Origin: Ignavibacterium sp.
Lineage (GTDB): Bacteria > Bacteroidota > Ignavibacteria > Ignavibacteriales > Ignavibacteriaceae
Length of the DNA: 36,147 nt
Assembly: GCA_025056745.1 (NCBI GenBank)
Contig: JANWVQ010000065.1
Span: 1 to 36,147 of the forward strand
Reading direction: 5' to 3'
Within the stretch, counting starts at the first letter, position 1; the number at the start of each line of letters is the position of its first letter. The notes beneath the pieces are model-generated. The model worked only from the letters and a program-made list of their open reading frames with translations, did not search any database and was not told the DNA's origin. The translations under genes were made by a program, and so were the position numbers. Below are positions 9,335 through 33,738 of the stretch, piece after piece.

Positions 9335-10747
9335 TTACAAAATGTATTTACTCAAGTCTCTGTTTTTAACGATTTTACCTAATTTATCACGAACAAAATC
9401 ACCATTAATTGTAATTTTTTTATCGTTTATCAAATCAGGAACACCAAAAAGAATGTCATCTAGTAGGGTTGTCAGAATAGTATGCAATCTTCTTGCTCCA
9501 ATATTTTCTACTTGTTCATTTACCTCTGAGGCGACTTTTGCAATTTCTTTGATCGCATCATCAGTAAATTCCAAACTAACGCCTTCTGTTTGTATTAAAG
9601 AATTATATTGCTTAAGAAGAGCATTTTCAGGCATAGTTAAAATTTTTATAAAATCCTCTTCTGTAAGACTATTTAGCTCAACTCTTATTGGAAATCGTCC
9701 TTGTAGTTCTGGAATTAAGTCCGAAGGTTTTGCAACGTGAAATGCTCCAGAAGCAATAAAAAGAATATGATCTGTTTTAACAACACCATATTTAGTGTTT
9801 ACATTTGATCCTTCAACAATTGGTAACAAATCTCTTTGAACTCCTTCTCTACTTACATCAGGGCCGTGCGATTTACCTGTAGCAGCTATTTTGTCGATTT
9901 CATCTATAAAAATTATCCCAGAATTTTCAACGCGTTGAATAGCTTCTTTTTGAACAGCTTCCATATCAATTAGTTTTTGAGCTTCTTCTTGAGTGAGAAT
10001 TTTTCGAGCTTCTTTAATTGTAGTTTTCTTTTTTCTTTTTTTCTTTGGCATCATACTTCCAACTATTTCTTGAATATTGATACCCATATCATCCATTCCA
10101 AAAGGACCTAAAATTTGCATCCCAACTGCAGGTACTTCTTGAGAGTCAAATTCTATAATTTTATCATCAAGTTCACCATTTTTGAGTTTTTTCCTCATCC
10201 ATTCGCGAGTAGAGCGGTTCTTTATAATTTCATTAGCGTGATCTTCTGGTGTGGTTTGTATTTCTCCTTCAATGGAATTATTTGCTTCTTCAGAGGAAGT
10301 ATGTATTTTCACTGGTGGAATCAAAATATCAAGAATTTTTTCTTCCGCTAATTCAGTTGCTTTTTGTTGAACTTCGATTGTTTTTTCAGATTTAACCATA
10401 TTTACAGCTACATCAACTAAGTCTCTTACCATTGATTCAACATCTCTACCAACGTATCCAACTTCTGTAAATTTAGAAGCCTCTACTTTTATGAAGGGAG
10501 CCTGAGCAAGTTTTGATAATCTTCGAGCAATTTCTGTTTTACCAACACCAGTAGGACCGATTAGAATTATATTATTCGGCATAATTTCTTCGCGCATATC
10601 ATCTTTAACCTGTTGTCTTCGCCATCTATTTCTTAAAGCAATAGCGACCGCACGCTTCGCATCACTTTGACCAATTATGTATTTGTCTAGCTCTTTAACA
10701 ATTTCAGATGGGGTTAATGCTGCAATTTTTTGATCTTTTTTCTCCAT
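9335..10747 (-). CDS. hslU: HslU, ATPase subunit of the HslVU protease
   Basis: AAA+ unfoldase that feeds proteins into the HslV peptidase in the cytoplasm. In 470 aa: the N-terminal [17 protein letters not shown], Walker [12 protein letters not shown] (about 63-73), the pore motif GYVGRDVE near 98, an intermediate (I) domain from about 110 to 240 that is charged and variable, Walker [13 protein letters not shown] near 274, the sensor and arginine-finger region [21 protein letters not shown], and a C-terminus ending SKYIL, the tail that docks into HslV. It starts 2 nt after the hslV stop. The following ferredoxin begins 8 nt after its stop, so the protease and redox genes look co-transcribed. 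Confidence 0.96.
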
Positions 10748-10749
10748 AA

Positions 10750-11286
10750 TTATTCAATTACCTCTACATTTATTTTATCATTTGTATAAATGCAAATTTC
10801 AGAAGCGGTTTTTAGTGATTCTATTACAATTTCTTTTGCACTTAGATTACTATGTTTAATAAGCATTTTGGCGGCTGCTAATGCATACATTGAACCAGAT
10901 CCAATTGCTACAATTTTATCATCAGGTTCAATTACATCACCATTACCTGAAATGATTAATGCTGTATCTTTACTAATAACTGAAAGCATAGCTTCAAGTC
11001 TTCGAAGGTATTTGTCAGTTCGCCAATCTTTTGCTAGTTCAACAGATGCTCTAAAAATATTTCCACGATATTGCTGAAGTTTATCTTCAAATCTTTCCAT
11101 TAACGTGAAAGCATCAGCAGATGCACCAGCGAAACCGCATAGAACTTTTCCGTCTAATAGTTTTCTTATTTTAGTGGCATTATGTTTCATAACAGTGTTG
11201 CCTAATGTTACTTGACCATCGCCGCCAATAGCAGCCATACCATTATGAATTAAGCCAATTATTGTTGTCGATTTTATCTGTTCCAT
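10750..11286 (-). CDS. hslV: HslV, peptidase subunit of the HslVU protease
   Basis: Proteasome-related threonine peptidase. The 178-aa product starts [16 protein letters not shown]. The nucleophile should be the first Thr of TTI (residue 7), exposed after removal of a six-residue propeptide, as in other HslV with a short leader. [23 protein letters not shown] and the internal [12 protein letters not shown] (about 51-62) are family motifs, and [11 protein letters not shown] is near residue 128. It heads hslV-hslU on the minus strand. The 89 nt upstream separate it from the DUF6029-like gene and hold no clear promoter match or terminator. Confidence 0.96.
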
Positions 11287-12933: not shown

Positions 12934-13437
12934 TTATTTTAATAAAGATATGATTAGCTCTCTAAGTTTTTTTTCATCACCTTTCATATATCCAAGATGG
13001 GTCTGAATTATTCTTCCATCTTTATCCAAAAGTACGGAGTAAGGTATTTGCTGAGCATAGTATTTGCGGGCAACCTCAGAATTTTTATCTAATAATACAG
13101 TGAAATTATATCCTCTTGATTTAATAAAAGGTTTTACTTTTGCGATAGTTTTTTCATTATCGGTTGATATTGCTAAAAGATTAAAACCTTTGTCTTTAAA
13201 TTCTTCGTAAATTTTATTTAATTCCACCATCTCTTCAATACAAGGTTTACACCAAGTAGCCCAGAAGCTAAGAAGAATTGGTCCTTTACCATAAAGCTTT
13301 GATAACTCCACTTGATTTCCATCAATGCTTTCAAGTTTAAAGTTTAATGCTTGTTTACCTTTTAGTTCATCTGTTTGTGAATTCAATTGATTAATAAAAA
13401 TAAAAGTTATAAAAACAATGGAAAGAAAATTTTTCAT
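12934..13437 (-). CDS. TlpA/ResA-like thiol-disulfide oxidoreductase
   Basis: Exported thioredoxin-fold protein of 167 aa. A signal peptide (MKNFLSIVFITFIFINQLNSQ) precedes a TlpA-type domain: KGKQALNFKLESIDGNQVELSKLYGKG, then the redox motif WATWCKPCIEEM (Cys-Lys-Pro-Cys near residues 62-65), the STDNEKT segment and the cis-Pro loop QIPYSVLLD. WCxPC enzymes of this type usually reduce disulfides or help cytochrome maturation. The ATG shares one base with the stop of the upstream T9SS-cargo gene (TAATG), implying translational coupling. That cargo carries a CxxxC pair, so it is a possible substrate. Without a lipobox it is probably a soluble or membrane-anchored periplasmic protein. Confidence 0.9.
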   Translation of the reverse strand: MKNFLSIVFITFIFINQLNSQTDELKGKQALNFKLESIDGNQVELSKLYGKGPILLSFWATWCKPCIEEMVELNKIYEEFKDKGFNLLAISTDNEKTIAKVKPFIKSRGYNFTVLLDKNSEVARKYYAQQIPYSVLLDKDGRIIQTHLGYMKGDEKKLRELIISLLK

Positions 13438-14186
13438 TATTTCTCCAGTATCATTTTTTTTGTTTCGACATTATAATCTGTTCTAAGTTGATAAAAATAG
13501 ATTCCTGCAGGTAATGTGGAATTTATTAAATATAATTTTGAGTGATTTCCACTTTCATAATATCCTTCAACAATTGTATCTACTTCCTGACCAAGTGAAT
13601 TATATAATTTTATTGATATCCAACCTGCTTTGGATAATTTCCAATTTATTGTTGTACTTGGGTTGAAAGAATTTAATGTTTTACCAAATGGATTGGGATA
13701 ATTTTGTTCTAGATTAAAGTCTTTAATTAAATATTCATCTTCAACAGAAGTTGGATTATAGGTATTTGCTGTAAAATTTCTGATGATAGTTTGAGTTGGA
13801 TTCCTAAAAGTTCCAGCTTTCAATTGAACAGTCCCTTGACCTGGTGTATTAGAACTTGTATAAACGTGTAGGGATACCTCTCTCATTTCACCGGGTTGAA
13901 GAGGATTACTTCCAAAATCAGGTGTTGTTGCAACACTATCAATAAAGGGCGGATAACAAAAGTCTAAACAAAGTGAAGAAGACCATCCAGATGGCAAATT
14001 ATTTTGAGTTCTAACTATAAACAAAGTTTGAGGACTTGAACTAATGTTTCTCACATCAATATAAAAAATCAATTCTTTGCCCATTGTATCAGAGATAGAT
14101 GTTTGTCTTGGAATAAAAGTAATATCTTGTGAAAATAATTTACTTACTATCAGAGTCGTGACTATTATTAAAAATCTAAGTTTCAT
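13437..14186 (-). CDS. Short secreted protein with T9SS C-terminal sorting domain
   Basis: The 249-aa product starts MKLRFLIIVTTLIVSKLFSQ, a clean signal peptide. The longer frame from 14228 would put 14 basic residues before it, so the ATG at 14186 is chosen. Residues about 20-150 look like an Ig-type beta domain (VRNISSSPQTLFIV, PGEMREVSLHVY) containing the pair CLDFC. The last about 80 residues are a type IX secretion sorting domain: NYPNPF, an insertion GKTLNSF, then NPSTTI, LYNSLGQEVDTI, LPAGIYFYQL and KKMILEK. The protein should cross the outer membrane through T9SS and be anchored or released. Its stop overlaps the start of the TlpA-like gene. No function can be assigned to the Ig-like part. 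Confidence 0.8.
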   Translation of the reverse strand: MKLRFLIIVTTLIVSKLFSQDITFIPRQTSISDTMGKELIFYIDVRNISSSPQTLFIVRTQNNLPSGWSSSLCLDFCYPPFIDSVATTPDFGSNPLQPGEMREVSLHVYTSSNTPGQGTVQLKAGTFRNPTQTIIRNFTANTYNPTSVEDEYLIKDFNLEQNYPNPFGKTLNSFNPSTTINWKLSKAGWISIKLYNSLGQEVDTIVEGYYESGNHSKLYLINSTLPAGIYFYQLRTDYNVETKKMILEK

Positions 14187-14283
14187 AATAATTTCTAATT
14201 TTTTATTAATTAACTTTCTTGAAAACAAAAATAATCAGAAAATCTGATTTTATTCTTTCATATAACCTTTAAAAAATAAAAAA

Positions 14284-14309
14284 GTCTTCTCCCGAATCAG
14301 AGAGAAGAC
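14284..14309 (-). terminator. Rho-independent terminator after the T9SS beta-propeller gene
   Basis: An 8-bp perfect stem, GTCTTCTC (14284-14291) with GAGAAGAC (14302-14309), has a 10-nt loop. On the minus strand it is followed by TTTTTTATTTTTT. It lies 27 nt after the stop of the 592-aa gene and separates it from the next operon. Confidence 0.85.
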
Positions 14310-14335
14310 ATAAATATTTTAATCAAAAAGAGTAT

Positions 14336-16114
14336 TTACTTAACTAAAATGAATTTCTTCACATCTGAATAATATTGTCCATTATTTGTTATAAATTCAA
14401 TTTTATAAAAGTAAATACCACTATTTAATTCATTAGCATTGTATGAAACTTCATAAGTTCCGGCAGAATAAAACTTATTAGTTAGTTCTGAGATTTTTTC
14501 CCCAGTTGGATTGTAAACACTCAATTTTACTTTTGCATCAACAGGAGTTGCAAATTTGATCTTAGTAATTGGATTAAATGGATTGGGATAGTTTTGATAA
14601 AGAATAAACTCATTTGGATTCAATATTTCAGCTTCAACAATATGTGAATATTCAAAACTACCATCAAAATCAATTTGTTTTAGTCTATAATAATATTTTC
14701 CAGATGATAAATTTTCGTCACGGAAAGAATAACTCTGTGGTTCTGATGTAGTGCCTTTCCCGTTTATAAATGCAATTGGATTCCAGTTTGAAAAAGTTCT
14801 GTCAGATGTTCTTTGAATTTCAAAACCATAATTATTTAGCTCTGTTGCCGTTGACCATCTTAATAAAACAGAGTTATCAATTGTTTGAGCCATAAAACTT
14901 GTTAGTTCAACTGGAATAAGTTGGAAATCAACAAAGTCAATATATTGTGCACTTGCACCAGATACAATTGTTCTTACCAGAGTATTTGATGTTGTTATCT
15001 CGTGAATTCCAGAGCCATTTGTAACCAAATAATTTCCATTGGGTAATCTGTAAGCTCCTCTCAAGCCAGTGACAACATTATAGGATGCTATTTGAGTACC
15101 ATTTGAGTTATAAACATATAGAGCAGATGGTGTAGAAAATCCTGCAACTGCAAAATTGCTATCACTCATTAAATGAATTTGTTGGGGGAACTGAATGCTT
15201 GCAACTATATCATTAATATATGTCCCATCCAATGTGTAACGATGAACTTTATTGCTACTGCTTGCACTCACAAGACAATCGTTTGAACGGAAAACTATAT
15301 CGAACGGACTATTTAATCCTCCAGATCCTGCAGTGATAAATTGATTTATAAAATTACCTGAAGCATCAAATTGAGGAATAGAGTTATTATTACCTCCACC
15401 TCCAACTGTAACTACAAGATTATTATTTGCTCTGTAATTATGTCCCCTGATATTGTCTAAAATAGCTGTGTTAACTCCACCAGCCGGTGCAAAAAATCCA
15501 AGATAATTTCCTGATGTATCAAATTTTTGAACGAGATCGCTTATTTGATCAGAAACACTGATAAAACCGTGTGGAGATAACCTGGATTGTTTTGGAGATT
15601 GTAGAGGACCTGAAGCAACAATGAAATTTGCATCTATCAAATCACCGTTAAATGGATTAAGTTTAATTACTTTGTCTGCATTCCATTCAGGGACAAGTAA
15701 ATATTTCCCACCAGTTGACTCAGTGGATATTGTGGATGGATATCCTAAATTCGGATTTATGGTGGGTTGTTTCATAAAATGCATTCTACCATTTACCAAA
15801 CTGAACCTTGATTCTATCTGCTCCCAAGTTAAAACTTCAGCATTATCATAAATGTCAGCAAGATTATTTATCACTGCAAAAAGAACTTTCTTATTTTTCA
15901 CTGCTCTCGCTTCCATATAAATCCCACTTGGCAAGTAAATAGCATAAGGAATATTTAATTCTCCAGTAGCTTCCTTTGCTTCTTGAATCATTGAGGGATT
16001 TTCTTCTGTAATTCGCATTAAATCAGCGAATCTGAAAAGCGGTTCAATCTGGGCAGAGGTTCGAACTGAAAGGATTAATAAGAGCAATCCGAGACCAAGT
16101 AGTTTTCGTCTCAT
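14336..16114 (-). CDS. Secreted beta-propeller protein with T9SS C-terminal sorting domain
   Basis: The 592-aa product has a signal peptide (MRRKLLGLGLLLLILSVRTSAQ). Residues about 125-390 carry repeated NHL-like blades (GKYLLVPEWNADKVIKLNP, ISDLVQKFDTSGNYLGFF, NSIPQFDASGNFINQF, SNKVHRYTLDGTYIND). A fibronectin-III-like domain follows from about 395 (VELTSFMAQTIDNSVLLRWSTA, a hallmark of Ignavibacteria/Bacteroidota secreted proteins). A Por/T9SS tail closes it (NYPNPFNPITKIKF, LNSGIYFYKIEF, VKKFILVK). GGGAG lies 8 nt before the ATG. The gene is monocistronic by position, with its own terminator. The propeller presumably binds a protein or surface ligand; nothing points to an enzyme activity. 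Confidence 0.85.
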   Translation of the reverse strand: MRRKLLGLGLLLLILSVRTSAQIEPLFRFADLMRITEENPSMIQEAKEATGELNIPYAIYLPSGIYMEARAVKNKKVLFAVINNLADIYDNAEVLTWEQIESRFSLVNGRMHFMKQPTINPNLGYPSTISTESTGGKYLLVPEWNADKVIKLNPFNGDLIDANFIVASGPLQSPKQSRLSPHGFISVSDQISDLVQKFDTSGNYLGFFAPAGGVNTAILDNIRGHNYRANNNLVVTVGGGGNNNSIPQFDASGNFINQFITAGSGGLNSPFDIVFRSNDCLVSASSSNKVHRYTLDGTYINDIVASIQFPQQIHLMSDSNFAVAGFSTPSALYVYNSNGTQIASYNVVTGLRGAYRLPNGNYLVTNGSGIHEITTSNTLVRTIVSGASAQYIDFVDFQLIPVELTSFMAQTIDNSVLLRWSTATELNNYGFEIQRTSDRTFSNWNPIAFINGKGTTSEPQSYSFRDENLSSGKYYYRLKQIDFDGSFEYSHIVEAEILNPNEFILYQNYPNPFNPITKIKFATPVDAKVKLSVYNPTGEKISELTNKFYSAGTYEVSYNANELNSGIYFYKIEFITNNGQYYSDVKKFILVK

Positions 16115-24732: not shown

Positions 24733-25059
24733 TTATTCCTCATTCAAAAACAAATAGTTCTAGTTTCACAATTCAATCTATTTAGAATATTTATCACTTT
24801 TTAGAATTACCTCAAAAAATATTACTATTATTTCCATATTTCTAAAATAAAGATTAAACCTATTTGATTTTAATAATTGATGAGAGAAATTCTTTACATA
24901 AATGCAGAGAAGAGTATATGATATTTAAAGTTTTAATAAATAACATTCTTAAGAAATTATATATCAAAACCTGATTTTTATAAATTCTTTTGATATTTTG
25001 CAGATAACTTTTCGCTTTTTCAATAAAAATTGGTCTTTAACAATCAAATAGGTTTATTT
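24733..25059. other. Divergent intergenic region, very AT-rich, no gene found
   Basis: About 327 nt between the divergent TonB-receptor-like gene (-) and the prenyl synthase gene (+). No ORF, tRNA or convincing hairpin was found. TATTTTG-like and TATTTG-like strings occur but none fits TAnnTTTG with a correctly spaced TTG. It must hold promoters for both directions, including the long downstream + strand run; I cannot place them. The in-frame TTG at 25030, a possible alternative start of the prenyl synthase, falls inside this span. Confidence 0.5.
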
Positions 25060-26052
25060 GTGAGAAATAAAGAAAAAAAATATGCTAAATTATATGAGCG
25101 TGAAAGAAACAAAATAAATGAAAAACTTTTCAATGCTCTTAAAAATAGAAAACCAGAGTCATTGTATAAACCATCAGATTATATTTTAAGCAATAGTGGA
25201 AAAAGATTAAGACCTATATTAGTATTATTCTCAGCAAAAGCTACTGGAGGAAATTTTAAGTCAGTTTATAATGCAGCACTATCAGTTGAGATGTTGCATA
25301 ATTTTACCTTGATCCACGATGATATAATGGACAACGCAGATCTAAGAAGAGGTAAAAAAACATTACATAAACTTTATGATTTGAATACAGCTATATTAGC
25401 TGGAGATAGCTTATTATCAATCGCTTATGAATATCTTCTGAAAGATTGCAAAATTAATGCAAGAGAGGCTGTTTCAGCGTTCACACAGGGTTTAATCGAA
25501 GTTTGTGAAGGGCAAAGTCTCGATACAGAATTTGAAAAGCGGTTTGAAGTAAGTCTTGATGAATATTTAGTGATGATTAGGAAAAAAACAGCTGCACTCG
25601 CAATGATGTGTTGCAAACTTGGAGCTATTCTTTCAAACGCAAAAAAATCAGATGTTGAAGCATTAGCTAATTATGGATTGAATCTCGGAATTGCTTTTCA
25701 AATTCAAGATGATTTACTAGATATAATGGGTGATGAAAAAGAAATTGGAAAAACTGTAGGCGGCGATTTAATTGTTGGCAAAAAAACTTTTTTATTTATT
25801 AAAGCCTTTGAAAAAGCAAAAGGAACTTATAAAAAAGATTTATTAAAAATGATCAAAAACAAAGGTATTTCACCCGATAAAGTTGAATACTTTAAAGAAA
25901 TGTTTATTAAACTTGGAGTTATTGATGATGCAAAATATGAAATAAAAAATTATACAGATAAAGCTTTAAAGTCTATAAGTTCATTAACAAACAAAGATGA
26001 AATAGGATTTTTTATTTGGCTTGCGGATTCTCTTATTGAAAGAAACAAGTAA
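25060..26052 (+). CDS. Prenyl diphosphate synthase, predicted geranylgeranyl (C20) type
   Basis: All-trans prenyl synthase that condenses IPP onto allylic diphosphates. First Asp-rich motif: FTLIHDDIMDNADLRRG; second: QIQDDLLDIMGDEKEIGK. GKRLRP (substrate Lys/Arg) is near residue 47. The first motif is DDxxD without a two-residue insertion and has Phe five residues before it. This is the type I pattern of archaeal GGPP synthase, where that aromatic residue limits chain length to about C20. A GTG at 25060 with AGG 7 nt upstream is taken as start (330 aa); the frame extends to a TTG at 25030 without a ribosome site, so the N-terminus is uncertain. Its stop overlaps the ptsH start (TAATG). Confidence 0.9.
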   Translation: MRNKEKKYAKLYERERNKINEKLFNALKNRKPESLYKPSDYILSNSGKRLRPILVLFSAKATGGNFKSVYNAALSVEMLHNFTLIHDDIMDNADLRRGKKTLHKLYDLNTAILAGDSLLSIAYEYLLKDCKINAREAVSAFTQGLIEVCEGQSLDTEFEKRFEVSLDEYLVMIRKKTAALAMMCCKLGAILSNAKKSDVEALANYGLNLGIAFQIQDDLLDIMGDEKEIGKTVGGDLIVGKKTFLFIKAFEKAKGTYKKDLLKMIKNKGISPDKVEYFKEMFIKLGVIDDAKYEIKNYTDKALKSISSLTNKDEIGFFIWLADSLIERNK

Positions 26053-26318
26053 TGATCGAAAAAAAAGTAAAGATTATCAATAAGGCGGGATTACATACAA
26101 GACCAGCAGCTACAATTGTTAAAATGGCTGCAAAATATAAATGTGATTTTTTTATTGATAGAGATGGAATGGAGATAAATGGAAAAAGTATAATTGGCGT
26201 TATGACTCTTGCTGCTGAAAATGGTTCAGAGTTAATTTTAAGATTTGATGGACCAGATGAACAACAAGCAGCTGAAGAAATCATATCCTATTTCGAAAGA
26301 GGTTTTGACGAACAATGA
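26052..26318 (+). CDS. ptsH: Phosphocarrier protein HPr
   Basis: PTS phosphocarrier that receives a phosphate from Enzyme I. The 88-aa product has the active-site motif AGLHTRPAA (His15) and NGKSIIGVMTLAA, which carries the Ser46-type regulatory site in the Gram-positive-like form KSIxGVM. That form suggests an HPr kinase/phosphorylase in the genome. It overlaps the prenyl synthase stop by one base and the ptsI start by 4 nt (ATGA), so the three are translationally coupled. No Enzyme II gene is in the window, so a regulatory or incomplete PTS is possible. Confidence 0.95.
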   Translation: MIEKKVKIINKAGLHTRPAATIVKMAAKYKCDFFIDRDGMEINGKSIIGVMTLAAENGSELILRFDGPDEQQAAEEIISYFERGFDEQ

Positions 26319-28081
26319 AAACATTCAAAGAAGTAATTACAAAAGCAGAAAATAAAATTGCAGGAATTGCTGCTGCTCCCGGAATTGTTATTGGAAAAGC
26401 TTATCTTTTTTCAAAAGAGAAAATTGAAATATCTAAAAGTCCAATTACTAATGTAGATGAAGCATTAAAAAATTTTGATGATGCTCTTTTGCAATCAAAA
26501 AAAGAAATGAATAAGATATTCAATATTGCAAAAGAGAAAATGGATGAAACAAGAGCTGCAATTTTTGAAGCACATTTGATGATTCTCGATGACCCCATCT
26601 TACTTGATTCAATAAGAAAAAGAATAATCGAAGAAAAAATTCAACCAGAATATATCGTCGCCACCGAAATTTCTAAGTATCAACAGATTATGACTCAATC
26701 CTCAGAGTTCTATATGAAAGAAAGAGCTCAGGATATTGAGGACATAAAAAATAGAATCATTCGTAATCTTCAGAAAAAAAGATGGCAATCAAAAATTGAA
26801 AAAGATGTTGTAGTAATAAGTGAATCTCTGACACCGGCAGATACTTTACTTTTCACAAAACATCAAACAAAGGGATTTGTAACAGATCACGGTGGATTAA
26901 CCTCTCACGCCGCAATAATCTCAAGATCATTAAACATCCCTGCTGTTGTTGGAACTCACAATGCAACCCAGATTATCAAAGACGGTGAATTAGTAATTGT
27001 TGATGGCTTTCACGGATATGTTTTCTTTAATCCAACTGAAGAACAAGTAAAATTCTATTCTGAAAAGCAAAAACGCTTGATTGAACTACAAAAAGGTTTA
27101 GAAGAGTTCAAAGACAAAGATGCAGTTACAACAGATGGAAAGAAAATTAATGTTGAAGCTAATGTAGATGTTACTGGTGAAATTGATTTAGTAATCTCAG
27201 CTGGAGCAAACGGAATTGGACTTTATAGATCAGAACAATTGCTTGATGAGTTCGGCTCTTTCCCAAGTGAAGAGGAACAAACTGTTATTTACTCTAAACT
27301 TGCTTCAAGAATTTACCCCCTGTTTTGTACAATTCGTGCTTTCGACGTTGGAGGTGATAAATTCAAACTTCAAGACTATAAAGAACCTAATCCCTTTTTA
27401 GGTTTAAGAGGGATAAGATTTTTGTTGGATAATGAAAAAATTTTCAAAGAACAAATTAGAGCTGTACTTAGGGCAAGTGTTCATAGAAACATAAAATTTA
27501 TGATTCCAATGGTTTCAACCTTAGATGAAATTTGGAGAACGAAGAGTTTAATTGAAGAATGTAAAAAAGAATTGAGAAGAGATAAAATCCATTTTGATTC
27601 TAAAATTAAGATTGGAATTATGGTTGAAGTCCCTTCAACAGCTGTTATGGCCAAAGAATTTGCAAGTGAAGTTGATTTCTTTAGTATCGGAACTAATGAT
27701 TTGATCCAATATCTTATGGCTGTTGATAGAGGTAATGATTTAGTTGCAGATTTATATCAGGAATTTAGTCCAGTTGTTTTGCGAACTATTCATCACATTG
27801 TTCAAGGAGCAAAAGAATTTGACACCCCGGTAAGTTTATGTGGTGAAATGGCGGCGGACACTTTAGCAATTCCTCTTCTTGTTGGATTAGGATTAGATTC
27901 AATTAGTATGTCTCCGGCAACTATCCTTTATGCAAAAAGAATTATTAACTCTTTTTCGTATAAGAAAGCCAAGGCTATGGCTGAAGAATGTCTACAGATG
28001 AAAACTGAAAAAGAAATTCAACAAAGAATCTTAAAATTCTTTGAAGAGAATAATATTTCAAGAACAAGAAACATAATTTGA
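26315..28081 (+). CDS. ptsI: PTS Enzyme I (PEP-protein phosphotransferase)
   Basis: Transfers phosphate from PEP to HPr. The 588-aa product has a 14-residue N-terminal extension before the usual IAGIAAAPGIVIGKAYLF start. The phosphorylated His lies in TDHGGLTSHAAIISRSLNIPAVVG (about 190-213). C-terminal PEP-binding domain: NGIGLYRSEQLL, FDVGGDKF, NPFLGLRGIRFLL, VPSTAVMAKEFASEVDFFSIGTNDLIQYLMAVDRGN and the catalytic Cys in SLCGEMAAD. All expected residues appear present. It begins inside the last codons of ptsH and is followed after 6 nt by the isomerase gene. Confidence 0.96.
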   Translation: MKTFKEVITKAENKIAGIAAAPGIVIGKAYLFSKEKIEISKSPITNVDEALKNFDDALLQSKKEMNKIFNIAKEKMDETRAAIFEAHLMILDDPILLDSIRKRIIEEKIQPEYIVATEISKYQQIMTQSSEFYMKERAQDIEDIKNRIIRNLQKKRWQSKIEKDVVVISESLTPADTLLFTKHQTKGFVTDHGGLTSHAAIISRSLNIPAVVGTHNATQIIKDGELVIVDGFHGYVFFNPTEEQVKFYSEKQKRLIELQKGLEEFKDKDAVTTDGKKINVEANVDVTGEIDLVISAGANGIGLYRSEQLLDEFGSFPSEEEQTVIYSKLASRIYPLFCTIRAFDVGGDKFKLQDYKEPNPFLGLRGIRFLLDNEKIFKEQIRAVLRASVHRNIKFMIPMVSTLDEIWRTKSLIEECKKELRRDKIHFDSKIKIGIMVEVPSTAVMAKEFASEVDFFSIGTNDLIQYLMAVDRGNDLVADLYQEFSPVVLRTIHHIVQGAKEFDTPVSLCGEMAADTLAIPLLVGLGLDSISMSPATILYAKRIINSFSYKKAKAMAEECLQMKTEKEIQQRILKFFEENNISRTRNII

Positions 28082-28087
28082 TTTTAT

Positions 28088-29125
28088 ATGAAATCAATAA
28101 ATGAATTTGTAAAAAAAAACGATCCTCAAAATCAATTTCAGATTCTTAAAGACTCTTATCAACAAATTGACTATGCATTAAACAATTCTTATCCAGATTT
28201 TTCTTCCTTTGAAATTAACAATATAATCATTTCTGGTCTTGGTGGTTCTGCTATAGCTGGAGATTTAATTAAAAATTTCTTAAAGGATGAATTAAGAATT
28301 CCTTTAATAGTAAATCGAAACTATACTTTACCAATTTTTGCAAACGAAAAAACACTTGTGATATGTTCTTCATACTCAGGAAACACTGAAGAAACTTTGT
28401 CTGCTTATAATGATGCACTTCAAAGAAAATGTAAAATAATATGTTTATCAACTGGTGGTGAATTAGAGAAATTAGCTTTTAAGAATAATATTCCATTTAT
28501 TCAACTAAAAAGGGGTTTCCAACCTCGCTATGCTTTAGGGCAAAGCTTTGCATCTGTTTTGGGTGTTTTTTCAAAGTTAAAACTAGTTCAAAACCAAGAA
28601 GATATTCTATGGAAAATAATAACTTTGTGGAAAAAGCGTGCCGATGAATATTCCAAAGAAAATAATCCTGCTTTTAATATAGCAGAGAGCCTCCTCGGAT
28701 TTATACCAATAATTTACTCAGTTAGTGATTTTAATAATTCTATTGGAATGAGATTCAAAGCTCAATTAAATGAAAATTCAAAACTTCATTGCTTTCATAA
28801 TGAACTGCCAGAAATGAATCACAACGAAATAATTGGGTGGGAATCTCACAAACAGAAAAATCTTTGTGCAAAAGTTATTTATATTCTTGATGATCAAATA
28901 CATCCTCAAATCAAAAGAAGGTTTGAGATCATCTCAGATATGATCAAATCTTCGGATGTCGAAATTATTACCCTGAAAAGTTCTGAAGAAAACTTTAAAA
29001 TGAGATTAATGGATTTAATCTATTTAACTGATTGGGTCAGTTATTATCTTGCTGTCCTTAGAGGTTTTGATCCAAGTGAAATAGATTTTATTCATAGTCT
29101 TAAAAACAAACTATCAGAAAATTAG
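28088..29125 (+). CDS. Bifunctional phosphoglucose/phosphomannose isomerase
   Basis: SIS-domain isomerase that interconverts fructose 6-phosphate with glucose 6-phosphate and mannose 6-phosphate. In 345 aa: the SIS fold starts at IIISGLGGSAIAGDLIKNFL (about 47-66), the phosphosugar-binding SSYSGNTEETLSAY lies near 97-110, and the second half contains NELPEMNHNEIIGWE, with the conserved Glu and His near 238-245. This is the archaeal/bacterial bifunctional PGI/PMI subfamily rather than classic Pgi. It sits 6 nt after ptsI, and its stop overlaps the GTG start of the next gene by one base. The grouping with HPr and Enzyme I fits sugar-phosphate metabolism. Confidence 0.9.
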   Translation: MKSINEFVKKNDPQNQFQILKDSYQQIDYALNNSYPDFSSFEINNIIISGLGGSAIAGDLIKNFLKDELRIPLIVNRNYTLPIFANEKTLVICSSYSGNTEETLSAYNDALQRKCKIICLSTGGELEKLAFKNNIPFIQLKRGFQPRYALGQSFASVLGVFSKLKLVQNQEDILWKIITLWKKRADEYSKENNPAFNIAESLLGFIPIIYSVSDFNNSIGMRFKAQLNENSKLHCFHNELPEMNHNEIIGWESHKQKNLCAKVIYILDDQIHPQIKRRFEIISDMIKSSDVEIITLKSSEENFKMRLMDLIYLTDWVSYYLAVLRGFDPSEIDFIHSLKNKLSEN

Positions 29126-31950
29126 TGAACTATAAATTCAGAATTATAAAACTCTTTTTTATAATTATTTTTTTTCTGTATAACACCATAAGTTATAGTC
29201 AATATTATTTCTTTGGTCGAAATAAAGTTCAGTATGAAGATTTTGATTGGAAAATAATCCGCACGAATCATTTTAATATTTATTACTATGGTAATGTTGA
29301 AAAAATTGCAGAGATTGGAGCAGCTTATGCAGAAGAAGTTTACGAGGAATTAAAAATAAAACTCAACCACGTTGTTACAAGAAAAATTCCTTTAATATTT
29401 TACAACACTTCTCTTCATTTTCAACAAACAAATATCACTCCAGGTCTTATTCCTGAGGGTGTTGGAGGATTTTTTGAATTTTTAAAGGGTAGAGTAGTAC
29501 TTCCATCGAATGGCTCTTTGAGTGAATTTAGACACGTAATTCGACACGAACTTGTTCACGTTTTTATGACTAATAAAATATTCAGAGTTTTAAGAGATCA
29601 TCGTTTACCAACAGATGCTATGCCACCTCTATGGTTTGTTGAAGGATTAGCTGAATATTTATCAACTGAGGTTGATGCTCAGGCTGAAATGGTTATGAGA
29701 GACGCTGTAATTAATAATTATTTCAGTGGAATGAAAGACTTTCCTAAAATTTATGGAACCTACTTGATGTATAAAGCTGGACAAAGCTTTTTAGAATTTG
29801 TTGAAAAAAGATATGGTGCTGATAAAATCCCACAAATACTTGATAACTTTTGGATGTTTAAGAAATTTGATGATATCCTTGAATACACACTTGGTGAATC
29901 TGTTGATAAAATTGATTCCGAGTGGAACTATGAATTAAAGAAAAAATATTTTCCACTATTGGCACATAAGAAACCTCAAGAGGTTGCTTCAGAAAAATTA
30001 ACTGAATCGGGATTTAATTTCTCTCCAGTGTATTATCAAAAAAGTGATAGTAGTTTTATTTATTTTAATGGAAATAGAGATGGATATTCATCAATATATA
30101 GATTAACATTATATAATAATAAAGAATTACCTAAAGTTGATTTAGTCTTAAGAGGTGAAAAAACAGATCAATTTGAGTCATTCCACTTATTTCAATCTTC
30201 AATAGATATTAATAAAAATGGTTTGTTAACTTTCGTTACAAAATCAGGAGCAACAGATGTAATTCACTTTTTCGATATCAAAACTAAGTTAATTCAAAAA
30301 ACTTTCCAGAATGATAACCTCATTTCAATATCATCGCCTAAATTTTCGAAAAATGGAGATAGAATAGTATTTCAAGCTATTGATACAAAAGGTTATAGTG
30401 ATCTATATATTTATCAAATCGATAATGATTCGCTAATTAGACTTACAAACGATTACTACGATGACAGAGATCCTTGTTTCGGTTTTGCTGATGAAAATTG
30501 TGTTATATTTTCATCAGACAGAACAGCTGGAAAATATAAAGGTAAATACAATATTTTCTTTTTAGAAATAGATACAAGAGATATTAGATATTTAACTTAT
30601 GCAAATGCAAATTTTTATAATCCTGTTCTTTCACCTTCAGAAAGTTTCCTGGTTTTTACTTCAGATTTAGACACAGTTAGGAATATTTGGAAACAAAATA
30701 TTATCAATAAAAAATTTAGTAAAACAATACATCAGATATCAAAATTTTATACTAGTGCATTTGACCCACGATTCATTAACGATTCAACTTTGGTATTTAC
30801 TGGATTTCAAAATTTCTCTTTTCATATTTATAAAAAACAAATCCCTCCAGATTCTTTATTAGATGTGTCTGTTATTATGGAAACAAATTCTGCAAAAGGA
30901 AAGTGGACTGCAGATTTAATAACTCAGACAGGAGAGTTTGAAAAATTAGAATACGAAAGAGAATATGCACTAGATTATGCACAAAGTGTTGTTGCAACAG
31001 ATCCAGTTTATGGAACAAGAGGAGGAGGGATTCTTACTATTAGTGATTTATTAGGAAATGATCAGTATTACATTCTTTTATATAACACTGCGGAAGTTCA
31101 AAGTGATTTCCTTAAAAGTTTCAACATTTCTTTAACAAGAATAAATCTTGGGAAAAGAGTGAATTATGGTTATGGAATTTTTCATTTCAATGGAAGACGT
31201 TATGATATAAGAGAATCTGATACTTATTTTTACGAAAAAAGTCACGGTGGAGTTTTCTTACTTAGTTATCCGCTTTCAAAATTTCATAGAATAGAAGCAT
31301 CAACTTCAATTGCAGATACTGAAAGAGAAATTGTTGAAGGTATATCGGAAAGAAAAGCGTTTATTTTAAGCAATTCAATTTCTGTTGTTCACGATAATTC
31401 TTTGTGGGTAACATCCGGTCCCGTTGATGGGACAAGATGGTTAATGTTGCTTGGTTATACAACTGATATAAGATACAGTAATGTTAATTATTACAGTGTG
31501 ATTTTGGATTATCGTCAATACGTTCGATTAGATTTAAGAACTGCAATTGCTTTCAGAGCTGCTATTTTTTACAATGATGGTAAAGATGCAAGAAGATATT
31601 TTATGGGAGGAAGTTGGGATTTGAGAGGTTGGAATCGCTGGTCAATTCGTGGTGAGAAAATGTGGCTATCATCTTTAGAATTTCGTTTCCCGCTTGTTGA
31701 TGAACTCTTGATTAAATTTCCTATTATTAATTTAGGCTTCAATGGAATTCGAGCTGCTACTTTTTTTGACGTTGGAAGTGCTTGGGATAAACAATATAAA
31801 ACAACTTATGGAAGTATCGGATTTGGCTTTAGATTTAATCTCTGGAATGTTTTGATTTTAAGATATGATATAGGTAAAAAAATCGAAAAACATTTTACAA
31901 GACTTCAACCAGGTTGGTTTTATCAATTTTTCTTTGGATGGGATTTTTGA
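29125..31950 (+). CDS. Zinc-protease / TolB-like propeller / Omp85-type barrel fusion
   Basis: Large 941-aa outer-membrane protein with three parts. (1) Signal peptide (about 1-25), then a gluzincin-like peptidase domain: HELVH at 141-145 and WFVEGLAEYLS at 170-180, giving two His and Glu (173 or 177) as zinc ligands and Glu142 as catalytic base, in the style of peptidase MA. (2) A propeller of PD40/TolB-like repeats, about 290-600 (FNGNRDGYSSIYRLTL, NGDRIVFQAIDTKGYSDLYIY, NCVIFSSDRTAGKYKGKYN, ESFLVFTSDLDTVRN). (3) A C-terminal beta-barrel from about 640, including MGGSWDLRGW (827-836), like the conserved (V)RG(F/Y) loop of Omp85/BamA, ATFFDVGSAWD, and a terminal Phe. The GTG start overlaps the isomerase stop (TAGTG). 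No POTRA domain is visible. A BamB-like lipoprotein follows directly. Confidence 0.82.
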   Translation: MNYKFRIIKLFFIIIFFLYNTISYSQYYFFGRNKVQYEDFDWKIIRTNHFNIYYYGNVEKIAEIGAAYAEEVYEELKIKLNHVVTRKIPLIFYNTSLHFQQTNITPGLIPEGVGGFFEFLKGRVVLPSNGSLSEFRHVIRHELVHVFMTNKIFRVLRDHRLPTDAMPPLWFVEGLAEYLSTEVDAQAEMVMRDAVINNYFSGMKDFPKIYGTYLMYKAGQSFLEFVEKRYGADKIPQILDNFWMFKKFDDILEYTLGESVDKIDSEWNYELKKKYFPLLAHKKPQEVASEKLTESGFNFSPVYYQKSDSSFIYFNGNRDGYSSIYRLTLYNNKELPKVDLVLRGEKTDQFESFHLFQSSIDINKNGLLTFVTKSGATDVIHFFDIKTKLIQKTFQNDNLISISSPKFSKNGDRIVFQAIDTKGYSDLYIYQIDNDSLIRLTNDYYDDRDPCFGFADENCVIFSSDRTAGKYKGKYNIFFLEIDTRDIRYLTYANANFYNPVLSPSESFLVFTSDLDTVRNIWKQNIINKKFSKTIHQISKFYTSAFDPRFINDSTLVFTGFQNFSFHIYKKQIPPDSLLDVSVIMETNSAKGKWTADLITQTGEFEKLEYEREYALDYAQSVVATDPVYGTRGGGILTISDLLGNDQYYILLYNTAEVQSDFLKSFNISLTRINLGKRVNYGYGIFHFNGRRYDIRESDTYFYEKSHGGVFLLSYPLSKFHRIEASTSIADTEREIVEGISERKAFILSNSISVVHDNSLWVTSGPVDGTRWLMLLGYTTDIRYSNVNYYSVILDYRQYVRLDLRTAIAFRAAIFYNDGKDARRYFMGGSWDLRGWNRWSIRGEKMWLSSLEFRFPLVDELLIKFPIINLGFNGIRAATFFDVGSAWDKQYKTTYGSIGFGFRFNLWNVLILRYDIGKKIEKHFTRLQPGWFYQFFFGWDF

Positions 31951-33074
31951 AAAAATTTTTTATCTATTTTTTGTTATTAATAACAGCTTGCTCAACTTCT
32001 TTAATAAAAGTTAATGTAAAATTACCGCAGACTACTCATCCAATATTTGGAGCGAGTGGTAATAGAAATTTTTACTACTCTATTTCATTATCAGACAGTT
32101 TGAAATTTCTTTGGCAAGCGAGCACTTATGGTGGTTTTAATAACTCCTCTGTTGTAGTATATGATTCATTATTATTTGTCGGTGAATTATCTGGAAGAGT
32201 GTATTGTTTTAACATTAATACAGGTAAACAACTTGGTGTGATAAAAACTAAAGGAGCAATTTTTTCAACTCCTTTAGTAACAAACTTTAGACTTTATTTC
32301 CCTCTTGTTAAAAGTGAAAGTAGAAAAACAGAAGTGATTGCCTATGATTTTTACGCTGGAAAAGAGGTTTTTATTGTTGAAATTGAAGACAGAATCACAA
32401 ATCAAATTTTATTTGATTCGGACGCAATTTATCTGACTGCTGCTGATGGTACTATCTACAAGTACAATCTAGAAATGAAACTAATTTGGACGGCAGAAAC
32501 TAATCAAAATATCAGTTGTGTTCCTGCTTTATTTGGTGAGTTTATTTTTATCGGTAATGAAGTAGGTGAAGTTCTGAAAATAGATAAATCTTTTGGTAGA
32601 ATTATTAAAAGACAAAAAATTTCTTCAAGATTTGTCTCAGGAATTTCAGTTGATGATGAAAAGTTATTCATTGGAGACGATGATGGAAATTTATTTTCTA
32701 TTAACTCAGAAAATTTAAATGTTAATTTCAAAATTCAAACTGGTTCAAGAATTTTAATGAATCCTGTAATTGATTTAGAGAATGTATTTATTGGAAATTT
32801 GAAAGGGGATTTATTTAGCATAAATAAGCATAATGGGAAAATCAATTGGTCAAAAAATTATAAAGGTTTATTCAATTCAACTCCAATTGTAAGTCAAAAT
32901 AAAATAATAATTCCAGATGCTTTCAAAGCTTATTGGATTTTAGATAAAAAGGATGGTAGTGTAATTAAAAAGCTAGAATTAGATGGTCGAGCTAAGCTCT
33001 CACCTGTTTTGATAGATAAAAAACTTTTTATTGGTTATGATGACGGAATTCTGGAGGCGTATGAGTTTAATTAA
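31938..33074 (+). CDS. BamB-like lipoprotein with eight-bladed PQQ-type propeller
   Basis: 378-aa lipoprotein: MGFLKKFFIYFLLLITACST is a signal peptide with lipobox ITAC, the Cys being lipidated. Eight PQQ-like blades can be counted by their closing strands, for example GELSGRVYCFNINTG, AADGTIYKYNLEM, GNEVGEVLKIDKSFG, GDDDGNLFSINSEN, GNLKGDLFSINKHNG and GYDDGILEAYEF. Size, lipidation and blade number match BamB, the propeller lipoprotein that binds the POTRA domains of BamA. The frame opens at a TTG at 31914; the ATG at 31938 (12 codons before the lipobox region) is preferred, and a TTG at 31947 is also possible. It overlaps the preceding fusion gene by 13 nt and the next gene by 14 nt, so the three are coupled. 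Confidence 0.8.
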   Translation: MGFLKKFFIYFLLLITACSTSLIKVNVKLPQTTHPIFGASGNRNFYYSISLSDSLKFLWQASTYGGFNNSSVVVYDSLLFVGELSGRVYCFNINTGKQLGVIKTKGAIFSTPLVTNFRLYFPLVKSESRKTEVIAYDFYAGKEVFIVEIEDRITNQILFDSDAIYLTAADGTIYKYNLEMKLIWTAETNQNISCVPALFGEFIFIGNEVGEVLKIDKSFGRIIKRQKISSRFVSGISVDDEKLFIGDDDGNLFSINSENLNVNFKIQTGSRILMNPVIDLENVFIGNLKGDLFSINKHNGKINWSKNYKGLFNSTPIVSQNKIIIPDAFKAYWILDKKDGSVIKKLELDGRAKLSPVLIDKKLFIGYDDGILEAYEFN

Positions 33075-33699
33075 ATATTTTCTTTTGTTATCATTTACTT
33101 CAATAATTATTGCGCAAGATTGTAAATCAGAATTAGTAATTAAAAGTGATTTTAACTCAGTAAATATTTTCATAAATGATTCTCTCGTTTCAGATAATGG
33201 TTATTTTGTAGGAAAAATTGAAAAAGGTAATTACAAAATAGTTGCTGATGAAGTTAGTGATCGATGGAACTCAATAACTTTTATTGATACAATTATCATT
33301 GATGATTGTAATCTTAGAAAGGAGCTTTTATTTTTATTTAAGGAAGATTCAATTAAAACTCAACTAAATCAGCACGATTCTACAGATTTTATTAATAAAA
33401 AATATTACCTTTCTGAAAAGGCATATAAGGAAATAGATTTTAGTATCCCAAATAAGGTTAAAAAAGAAAAGTTCGTTGATTCTCATCTTTTCAAAATATT
33501 TACGGTAACTTCAATAGTTTTAGGGGGAGTAACTGCATATTATAAGATCAAAGCTGATAAACTATTTGATGAATATCTTTCCAGCAGAGATAAATCAAAA
33601 TTAGATCAAACAAAAAAATATGATTTAATAAGTGGAATAACCTTAGCAGCATTTCAAATAAATTTTAGTTACATTCTTCTGAGATTTTTATTAGAATGA
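33061..33699 (+). CDS. Exported PEGA-like domain protein with C-terminal hydrophobic segments
   Basis: The 212-aa product starts MSLIKYFLLLSFTSIIIAQD, a signal peptide. GGAGG (33053-33057) lies 3 nt before the ATG at 33061, which is preferred over a longer frame from 33031. Residues about 22-90 resemble a PEGA-type surface domain (SELVIKSDFNSVNIFINDSLV, GYFVGKIEKGNYKIV). A charged linker follows, then two hydrophobic segments near the end (about 145-160 FKIFTVTSIVLGGVTAYY and about 190-208 ISGITLAAFQINFSYILL). I do not recognise a specific family. It is the last gene of the run, overlapping the BamB-like gene by 14 nt and followed by a strong hairpin. Confidence 0.65.
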   Translation: MSLIKYFLLLSFTSIIIAQDCKSELVIKSDFNSVNIFINDSLVSDNGYFVGKIEKGNYKIVADEVSDRWNSITFIDTIIIDDCNLRKELLFLFKEDSIKTQLNQHDSTDFINKKYYLSEKAYKEIDFSIPNKVKKEKFVDSHLFKIFTVTSIVLGGVTAYYKIKADKLFDEYLSSRDKSKLDQTKKYDLISGITLAAFQINFSYILLRFLLE

Positions 33700-33700
33700 A

Positions 33701-33738
33701 AATAACCTTCAGAGTTTAAAGTTACTCTGAAGGTTATT
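33701..33738. terminator. Bidirectional terminator between convergent operons
   Basis: A perfect 15-bp stem, AATAACCTTCAGAGT (33701-33715) with ACTCTGAAGGTTATT (33724-33738), has an 8-nt loop. It lies 1 nt after the PEGA-like gene and 5 nt from the stop of the convergent TonB receptor. A/T-rich stem ends provide the U-tract on both strands. It is the strongest hairpin in the window. Confidence 0.9.

Follow-up and report, generated by a model that had tools for sequence, protein, structure and literature searches.

A protease-propeller-Omp85 fusion with two partner genes in Ignavibacterium, a candidate outer-membrane module

The fusion gene and its domains

The window analysed here, a stretch of 36,147 nucleotides from Ignavibacterium sp. 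that makes up one contig (JANWVQ010000065.1; C31 in our numbering) of a 2.74-Mb genome, carries on its forward strand a gene for a fusion protein of 941 amino acids (29125-31950) in which a signal peptide, a gluzincin-type protease, a TolB-like propeller and an Omp85 barrel devoid of POTRA domains follow one another. It is succeeded by a gene for a lipoprotein of 375 amino acids with an eight-bladed PQQ-type propeller (31947-33074) and by a third gene encoding a protein of 212 amino acids (33061-33699), both on the same strand. A first-pass annotation, made from the letters alone, had described a module spanning 29125-33074; the two genes that it placed there are confirmed, but the third, which belongs to the same operon, falls outside that range.

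The reading frame of the fusion opens with a GTG codon at 29125 and closes with the stop codon at 31948-31950. Sequence and alignments assign residues 1-25 (29125-29199) to the signal peptide, and residues 45-283 (29257-29973) constitute a peptidase domain that is mostly helical in the structure model. Relatives of the fusion were sought among named genomes with two short motifs as the query, a scan biased towards close kin that returned at least 324 relatives; the best 80 were kept, the closest named ones being metagenome-assembled Ignavibacterium genomes with up to 85% identity in the fusion, and the window together with 55 of these loci provided an alignment of 56 sequences. The HExxH motif and downstream glutamate of the clan MA gluzincins are present in every one, with H141, E142 and H145 of the HELVH zinc-binding motif (residues 141-145; 29545-29559) and E173 of WFVEGLAEY (29641-29643) identical throughout, an agreement beyond chance. 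E173 is presumed to be the third zinc ligand, as in the M1-like gluzincins. The Pfam family Peptidase_MA_2 was matched at residues 91-270 (E 9.6e-7) with 29.2 bits, just below its cut-off of 32.4 bits, and with 33.0 bits, just above it, in a genome-wide search; because the score straddles the cut-off, the assignment as a protease draws mainly on the motif. Peptidase_M48 was absent among the Pfam matches of the fusion at E up to 0.1.

The next part of the protein, residues 284-580 (29974-30864), is a TolB-like propeller. The NCBIfam TolB model TIGR02800 matched residues 368-531 (E 1.4e-16) at 60.5 bits and did not reach its curated cut-off of 343.15. In a model of the whole protein, built by AlphaFold2 from the 56 sequences (mean pLDDT 82.6, pTM 0.80), residues 284-580 form a propeller that superimposes on solved TolB over 246 residues (Z 26.5, rmsd 2.5). 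The likeness to TolB is one of fold; unlike TolB, the propeller is joined to a protease and a barrel, and its score lies far below the TolB cut-off.

Residues 614-941 (30964-31947) make up the barrel. The Pfam Omp85 family (PF01103) matched residues 664-902 above its cut-off (E 9.9e-11), and the model has 16 strands of at least seven residues within residues 614-938, which aligned with BamA of Deinococcus over 312 residues (Z 25.1, rmsd 3.5) and with BamA of Escherichia coli at a Z of about 22. A C-terminal Omp85 barrel of 16 strands was the point on which the first-pass annotation had staked its reading beforehand, and it was found. The fusion of the three parts in one protein, likewise predicted, is supported by Pfam, NCBIfam and the model, while profiles, alignment and model agree on the signal peptide, the HELVH and WFVEG motifs, the propeller and the barrel within the 941 residues. 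The profile searches that had been proposed for the separate regions returned similarity to Omp85 and to the TolB propeller, and Peptidase_MA_2 at its cut-off.

An arginine motif in loop 6 is conserved in the Omp85 superfamily. The segment LRGW (residues 833-836; 31621-31632), which we take to be the counterpart of the (V/I)RGF motif in loop 6 of BamA, retains R834 in all 56 sequences and G835 in 50 of them, and E852 and D882 of the barrel are also present in all 56. No POTRA match was obtained for the fusion in Pfam profile searches, as had been suspected, and the propeller of residues 284-580 stands in the place of these domains. The fusion therefore has the barrel and the loop-6 arginine motif of Omp85 proteins and lacks POTRA; the latter has been called characteristic of Omp85 (PMC11116518), whereas elsewhere the barrel alone defines the superfamily (PMC4104836; this and the other papers are cited from excerpts).

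Conservation along the fusion, expressed as the mean share of the commonest residue, is 0.70 for the protease, 0.67 for the barrel, 0.52 for the propeller and 0.31 for the linker, with peaks at the loop of residues 97-127 (0.89), barrel loop 6 (0.80), the motif after the signal peptide (0.77) and the zinc site (0.75). No part of the fusion is more conserved than the loop of residues 97-127 (29413-29505), which has low confidence in the model. Several of the fold alignments to BamA start at residues 97-102, and because the aligned ranges begin there, this loop may sit near the mouth of the barrel. The motif FGRNKVQY (residues 30-37, in the region of residues 26-44; 29200-29256), nearly invariant and poorly predicted in the model, lies directly after the signal peptide; Q26, F30, G31, N33, K34 and Y37 are invariant in the 56 sequences, and a paralogue of 1057 amino acids in the same genome carries the motif as FGKNKVQY.

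The lipoprotein, the third gene and their conservation

The overlap of the lipoprotein gene with the fusion gene, which the first-pass annotation had recorded, holds, but the start at 31914 listed for its reading frame does not. The most likely start, judged from the sequence, is the TTG at 31947: its TTGA shares four bases with the end of the fusion gene, stop codon included, and the lipobox cysteine becomes residue 15. Of the 25 nearest loci, window included, 23 offer an overlapping start. An alignment of the window's lipoprotein with 42 of 58 candidates, from which a wider profile (A4) was made, has the lipobox cysteine in all 43 sequences; a simple lipobox pattern matches 58 of 68 adjacent lipoproteins, the remainder of which were not all inspected. 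The structure model (mean pLDDT 95.7) is a propeller with the eight blades that had been claimed.

The further claim that this protein is a BamB fared less well. The BamB equivalog TIGR03300 is its best NCBIfam match (E 9.6e-29), but at 100.2 bits against a curated cut-off of 285.2, so that an assignment to BamB by this cut-off was rejected. The Pfam family PQQ_2, which carries a BamB description, scored 84.9 bits against a cut-off of 27.6; it also matches in 11 of 14 control genomes, archaea, Gram-positives and Bacillus among them. By sequence, the solved structures nearest to the lipoprotein were designed PQQ propellers (E 1.2e-37), followed by YxaL (2.1e-12) and BamB (4.5e-10); by VIA Z the order was YxaL (42.5), tetrathionate hydrolase (41.8), Rv3035 (40.5) and BamB (36.6), and by Foldseek E-value BamB held rank 4, ahead of YxaL. 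Profile comparison with E. coli BamB gave a probability of 99.8 over 352 columns at 16% identity. Residues 192-196 and 236-246 of E. coli BamB, taken to be its contacts with BamA (POTRA3) although no literature source for them was found, are gaps in the alignment with the lipoprotein profile. As modelled, then, the fold does not single out BamB, and the protein is a propeller of the wider PQQ family that is not shown to be BamB. Such a placement fits a survey of the proteobacteria from 2012, in which a late entry of BamB into the complex is proposed and the BamB model also picks up dehydrogenases at low significance (PMC3359395). Apart from the lipoprotein, the genome yielded a single PQQ_2 protein, which is large and has a secretion-tail domain.

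The third gene shares its first 14 bases with the lipoprotein gene; it begins with an ATG at 33061, which is preceded by GGAGG. Its product has a signal peptide, a region that aligns with PEGA-bearing relatives and a C-terminal pair of hydrophobic stretches, within residues 139-160 and 190-211. In an alignment of the window's protein with 37 of 48 candidates, 33 of the 38 relatives have PEGA domains according to Pfam, which gives no such match in the window's own protein. The two hydrophobic stretches are joined by a basic link, with K162, A165 and D188 invariant in all 38, and no Pfam family matches the pair. A terminator-like hairpin of 15 pairs (33701-33738, listed on the reverse strand) lies between the operon and a convergent gene for a TonB receptor. 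A promoter scan returned 42 sites where 50.4 were expected, and an Rfam search gave no match.

The titles of the 80 kept loci name Ignavibacteria, Kryptonia, Calditrichota, KSB1, Rhodothermota and Neomarinimicrobiota. The lipoprotein gene is next to the fusion in 68 of the 76 of these loci that could be evaluated (four were too short), in one of them (L106) after a gap of about 860 bases, and the third gene comes next in 51 of 58 (ten being too short). A sample of 247 genomes of the phylum was searched for both proteins. Sixty were classed as fusion genomes, in which, among the matches listed, a match to the fusion extends to the last profile column; the other 187 had no fusion barrel among the matches listed. 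The lipoprotein gene lies directly downstream of the fusion in 58 of the 60 fusion genomes and elsewhere in two, so that the partner predicted to be encoded next door is indeed conserved there. In one genome with a split operon (G254) the lipoprotein and third genes are still side by side. Of the 58 adjacent cases, 55 came from the lipoprotein search and three from reading the downstream DNA.

That search gave matches in 82 genomes, of which 57 were entered in the tally, several of them by one match. In the remaining 25 the match began only at profile position 114 or later, in PQQ proteins of 373 to 1882 amino acids; these inner-blade-only genomes were classed as other PQQ families, although some could hold distant relatives of the lipoprotein. 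Three of the 60 known carriers were missed (G080, G085 and G175) and recovered from the downstream DNA; the row for G085 in the search is an inner-blade-only match, its true copy having been found downstream. The 187 genomes for which no fusion barrel was listed gave no full-length lipoprotein match, although at this sensitivity a few more carriers may have escaped. A narrower profile (A2) had no match in 14 of the 60 fusion genomes, but the wider profile detected the lipoprotein in the downstream DNA of each of them (E 1e-8 to 2.4e-93). Thirteen of the 14 also have the third gene, the contig of G175 being too short to tell. All 40 genomes that reach at least 100 bits with the narrower profile carry the fusion (Fisher p about 2e-31, a value overstated as kinship is ignored). 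From these sequence comparisons the partnership of fusion and lipoprotein is judged to be real, and adjacency by chance or of recent origin was rejected on the conserved neighbourhood in both the named loci and the phylum sample.

A possible protease module at the outer membrane

A gene set of this kind has partial precedents. Heinz and Lithgow (2014) distinguished ten Omp85 subfamilies, one of which, WD40-Omp85, has an N-terminal TolB-like propeller and an Omp85 barrel without POTRA, as the fusion does, and was compared by these authors to BamA and BamB joined in one protein; the subfamily that they call 'Metallo' carries another domain, PF00149 (PMC4104836). The excerpted account of WD40-Omp85 names no protease, lipoprotein partner or PEGA gene, in which it differs from the set described here, and the members recognized in 2014 may carry a protease domain too. 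We would file the fusion under the WD40-Omp85 architecture, as a variant whose protease motif is intact and whose operon is defined. The propeller-Omp85 fusion itself has been known since 2014; what is new is the intact protease, the pair of partners and the occurrence in several phyla. Nothing further on protease-propeller-Omp85 proteins was found in the literature beyond that paper, and Omp85 subfamilies with metalloprotease or WD40-like domains were described in 2024 as not well characterised and as intriguing targets (PMC11116518).

The reading that we favour, with a probability of roughly 45%, is that the three genes encode an outer-membrane module that captures client proteins at the outer membrane and cleaves them, as a means of quality control or maturation. 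The Omp85 barrel of the fusion would reside in the outer membrane, with the TolB-like propeller and an active gluzincin-type protease in the periplasm, where they would replace the POTRA domains. An orientation with protease and propeller on the inner face of the outer membrane is suggested by analogy, because the N-termini of characterised Omp85 proteins are periplasmic and so is the enzyme of PlpD, which was once thought to be secreted and was placed in the periplasm by protease and disulphide experiments (PMC11116518). PlpD, a patatin-POTRA-Omp85 protein, resembles the fusion in having its enzyme domain N-terminal to an Omp85 barrel and differs from it in being a lipase rather than a protease, in possessing POTRA and in lacking a propeller (PMC11116518). 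The lipoprotein would dock on the fusion at the inner face of the outer membrane, possibly on its propeller, and serve as a scaffold or client receptor; because the fusion has no POTRA, a contact of the BamB type with such domains is not available to it. The third protein would have its C-terminal hairpin probably in the inner membrane, with its PEGA region reaching into the periplasm. The module would capture proteins that are on their way to the outer membrane, or have failed in their delivery to it, and cleave them. BepA is not fused to a barrel. The fusion would do a BepA-like job as a protein built into the membrane beside its own Omp85 barrel; BepA, which works with the BAM complex, is likewise a periplasmic HExxH protease, of the M48 family that the fusion does not match, and a barrel client demonstrated for it (PMC8423444) is hypothetical for the fusion. 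That the pair may assemble or police outer-membrane proteins, as the first-pass annotation had supposed, is plausible. The computations establish the architecture, the intact zinc motif, the fold of the barrel, the operon and a near-strict co-occurrence, whereas the orientation, the assembly of a complex, the membrane in which the third protein sits and the proteolysis with its substrates are inferred.

Several observations weigh against this reading. The Peptidase_MA_2 score sits at the family cut-off, and the comparison with solved structures covered the propeller and the barrel but the protease part barely. The lipoprotein is not next door in eight of the 76 evaluable named loci (L114 to L121), the third gene is not next in seven of 58, and near the displaced lipoprotein gene of one genome (G118) there is no third gene. 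Only three candidates per genome were scored for the fusion in the phylum sample, and seven for the lipoprotein, and through shared descent the co-occurrence counts are not phylogenetically independent. The upstream genes, for a phosphotransferase system (PTS) enzyme I and a phosphoglucose/phosphomannose isomerase, give no hint of a role in membrane quality.

The barrel might instead be only an anchor, in an outer-membrane protease for nutrition or envelope turnover whose propellers hold substrates or keep the complex together. The intact protease motif fits such an enzyme, and two further protease-propeller proteins of similar plan in the genome are what a diversified set of peptidases would include; we nevertheless consider it unlikely, because the barrel is nearly as conserved as the protease, R834, E852 and D882 included, although the lower constraint expected of an anchor is itself an assumption. 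The same closeness in conservation favours a protease action that is tied to the barrel. On equal footing, and thus also improbable, stands a device for translocation or lipid handling that resembles PlpD, TamA or the two-partner systems: clients or lipids would be passed or inserted by the barrel, and the protease would trim whatever passes. All 16 Omp85 strands are there, a patatin-POTRA-Omp85 protein of the PlpD plan is encoded in the same genome, and the PEGA region with its membrane tail could conceivably form a TamB-like bridge to the inner membrane; but the fusion lacks the POTRA domains by which characterised Omp85 proteins handle their clients, and no third recurrent downstream partner fit to be an exoprotein occurs among the 30 neighbour clusters listed.

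Less probable still is that the set is an accessory of BAM, with the lipoprotein as the lineage's BamB acting on BamA and the fusion as a BAM-bound protease like BepA. The BamA-BamB pair does resemble the pair described here in joining an Omp85 barrel to a propeller lipoprotein, and the NCBIfam ranking of BamB, the PQQ_2 score, the profile comparison with E. coli BamB, the Foldseek rank and the scarcity of other PQQ_2 proteins in the genome all speak for this alternative. The fusion lacks POTRAs, however, the curated BamB cut-off was missed, and PQQ_2, given its matches in the control genomes, is no marker of BamB. The genome also has a separate canonical BamA, for which a search had been advised: a protein of 830 amino acids with four POTRA stretches (L053:8612-11101), beside which lie what we take to be genes for undecaprenyl synthase and two OmpH/Skp proteins. 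The fusion was accordingly rejected as the genome's BamA. The lipoprotein follows the fusion, and the absence of full-length matches from the 187 genomes with no fusion barrel listed, in all of which BamA is assumed to be present, speaks against service to BamA; a lipoprotein serving mainly BamA was rejected on this ground. In Flavobacterium the BAM core consists of BamA, D, G and H, of which G and H are conserved in most FCB phyla; the excerpted paper leaves BamB unnamed and uses the word protease twice, for shielding and for an assay (PMC12611786).

A bolder form of the favoured protease module, which we regard as doubtful, is that it constitutes, next to BAM and TAM, another machine of the outer membrane, with Omp85 barrel and zinc protease in one protein, a private lipoprotein and a PEGA tether. 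The barrel would open for clients or sense them and the adjacent protease would decide their fate, the loop of residues 97-127, beside the active site, would be a coupling element that docks at the mouth of the barrel, and the PEGA protein would tie the complex to the inner membrane. The POTRA-less Omp85 family described here, whose protease motif is intact, has retained two partner genes in several phyla, which gives the protease/WD40-like Omp85 architecture a parts list and two candidate partners and makes its role directly testable.

Paralogues and neighbouring genes

Two paralogues of the fusion are encoded elsewhere in the genome. The one of 1057 amino acids (L049:8688-11858, contig 36) has HELVH and a propeller, and its barrel, unreported by Pfam, is of the Omp85 type by profile comparison (99.8% over 300 columns, 31% identity). 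Its gene adjoins one for an RNB-domain ribonuclease, and no lipoprotein propeller occurs among the reading frames listed near it in this genome. The second (L050:5953-9063, contig 172; 1037 amino acids) has HEFTH and PD40 repeats, with a weak barrel match (74.7% over 85 columns). Matches of the kind given by the first paralogue, to only the first half of the fusion and in frames of about 1050-1190 amino acids, occur among the matches listed in many genomes of the phylum sample that lack the form found in the window. Three further POTRA-Omp85 proteins were scanned in the genome; the one with a patatin domain has 903 amino acids (L054:8297-11005, contig 140).

Upstream of the fusion (25030-29125) lie genes for a polyprenyl synthetase, PTS enzyme I and the isomerase, and similar reading frames form clusters in 42, 50 and 44 of 81 sequences, respectively; the loci of Calditrichota, KSB1 and Kryptonia, some of them short, stand outside these clusters. 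Farther off in the window, a gene for a proteasome-type peptidase adjoins one for an AAA_2 ATPase (9335-11286), presumably on the HslV-HslU plan, and two genes at 13437-16114 encode products that end in a secretion-system C-terminal sorting domain.

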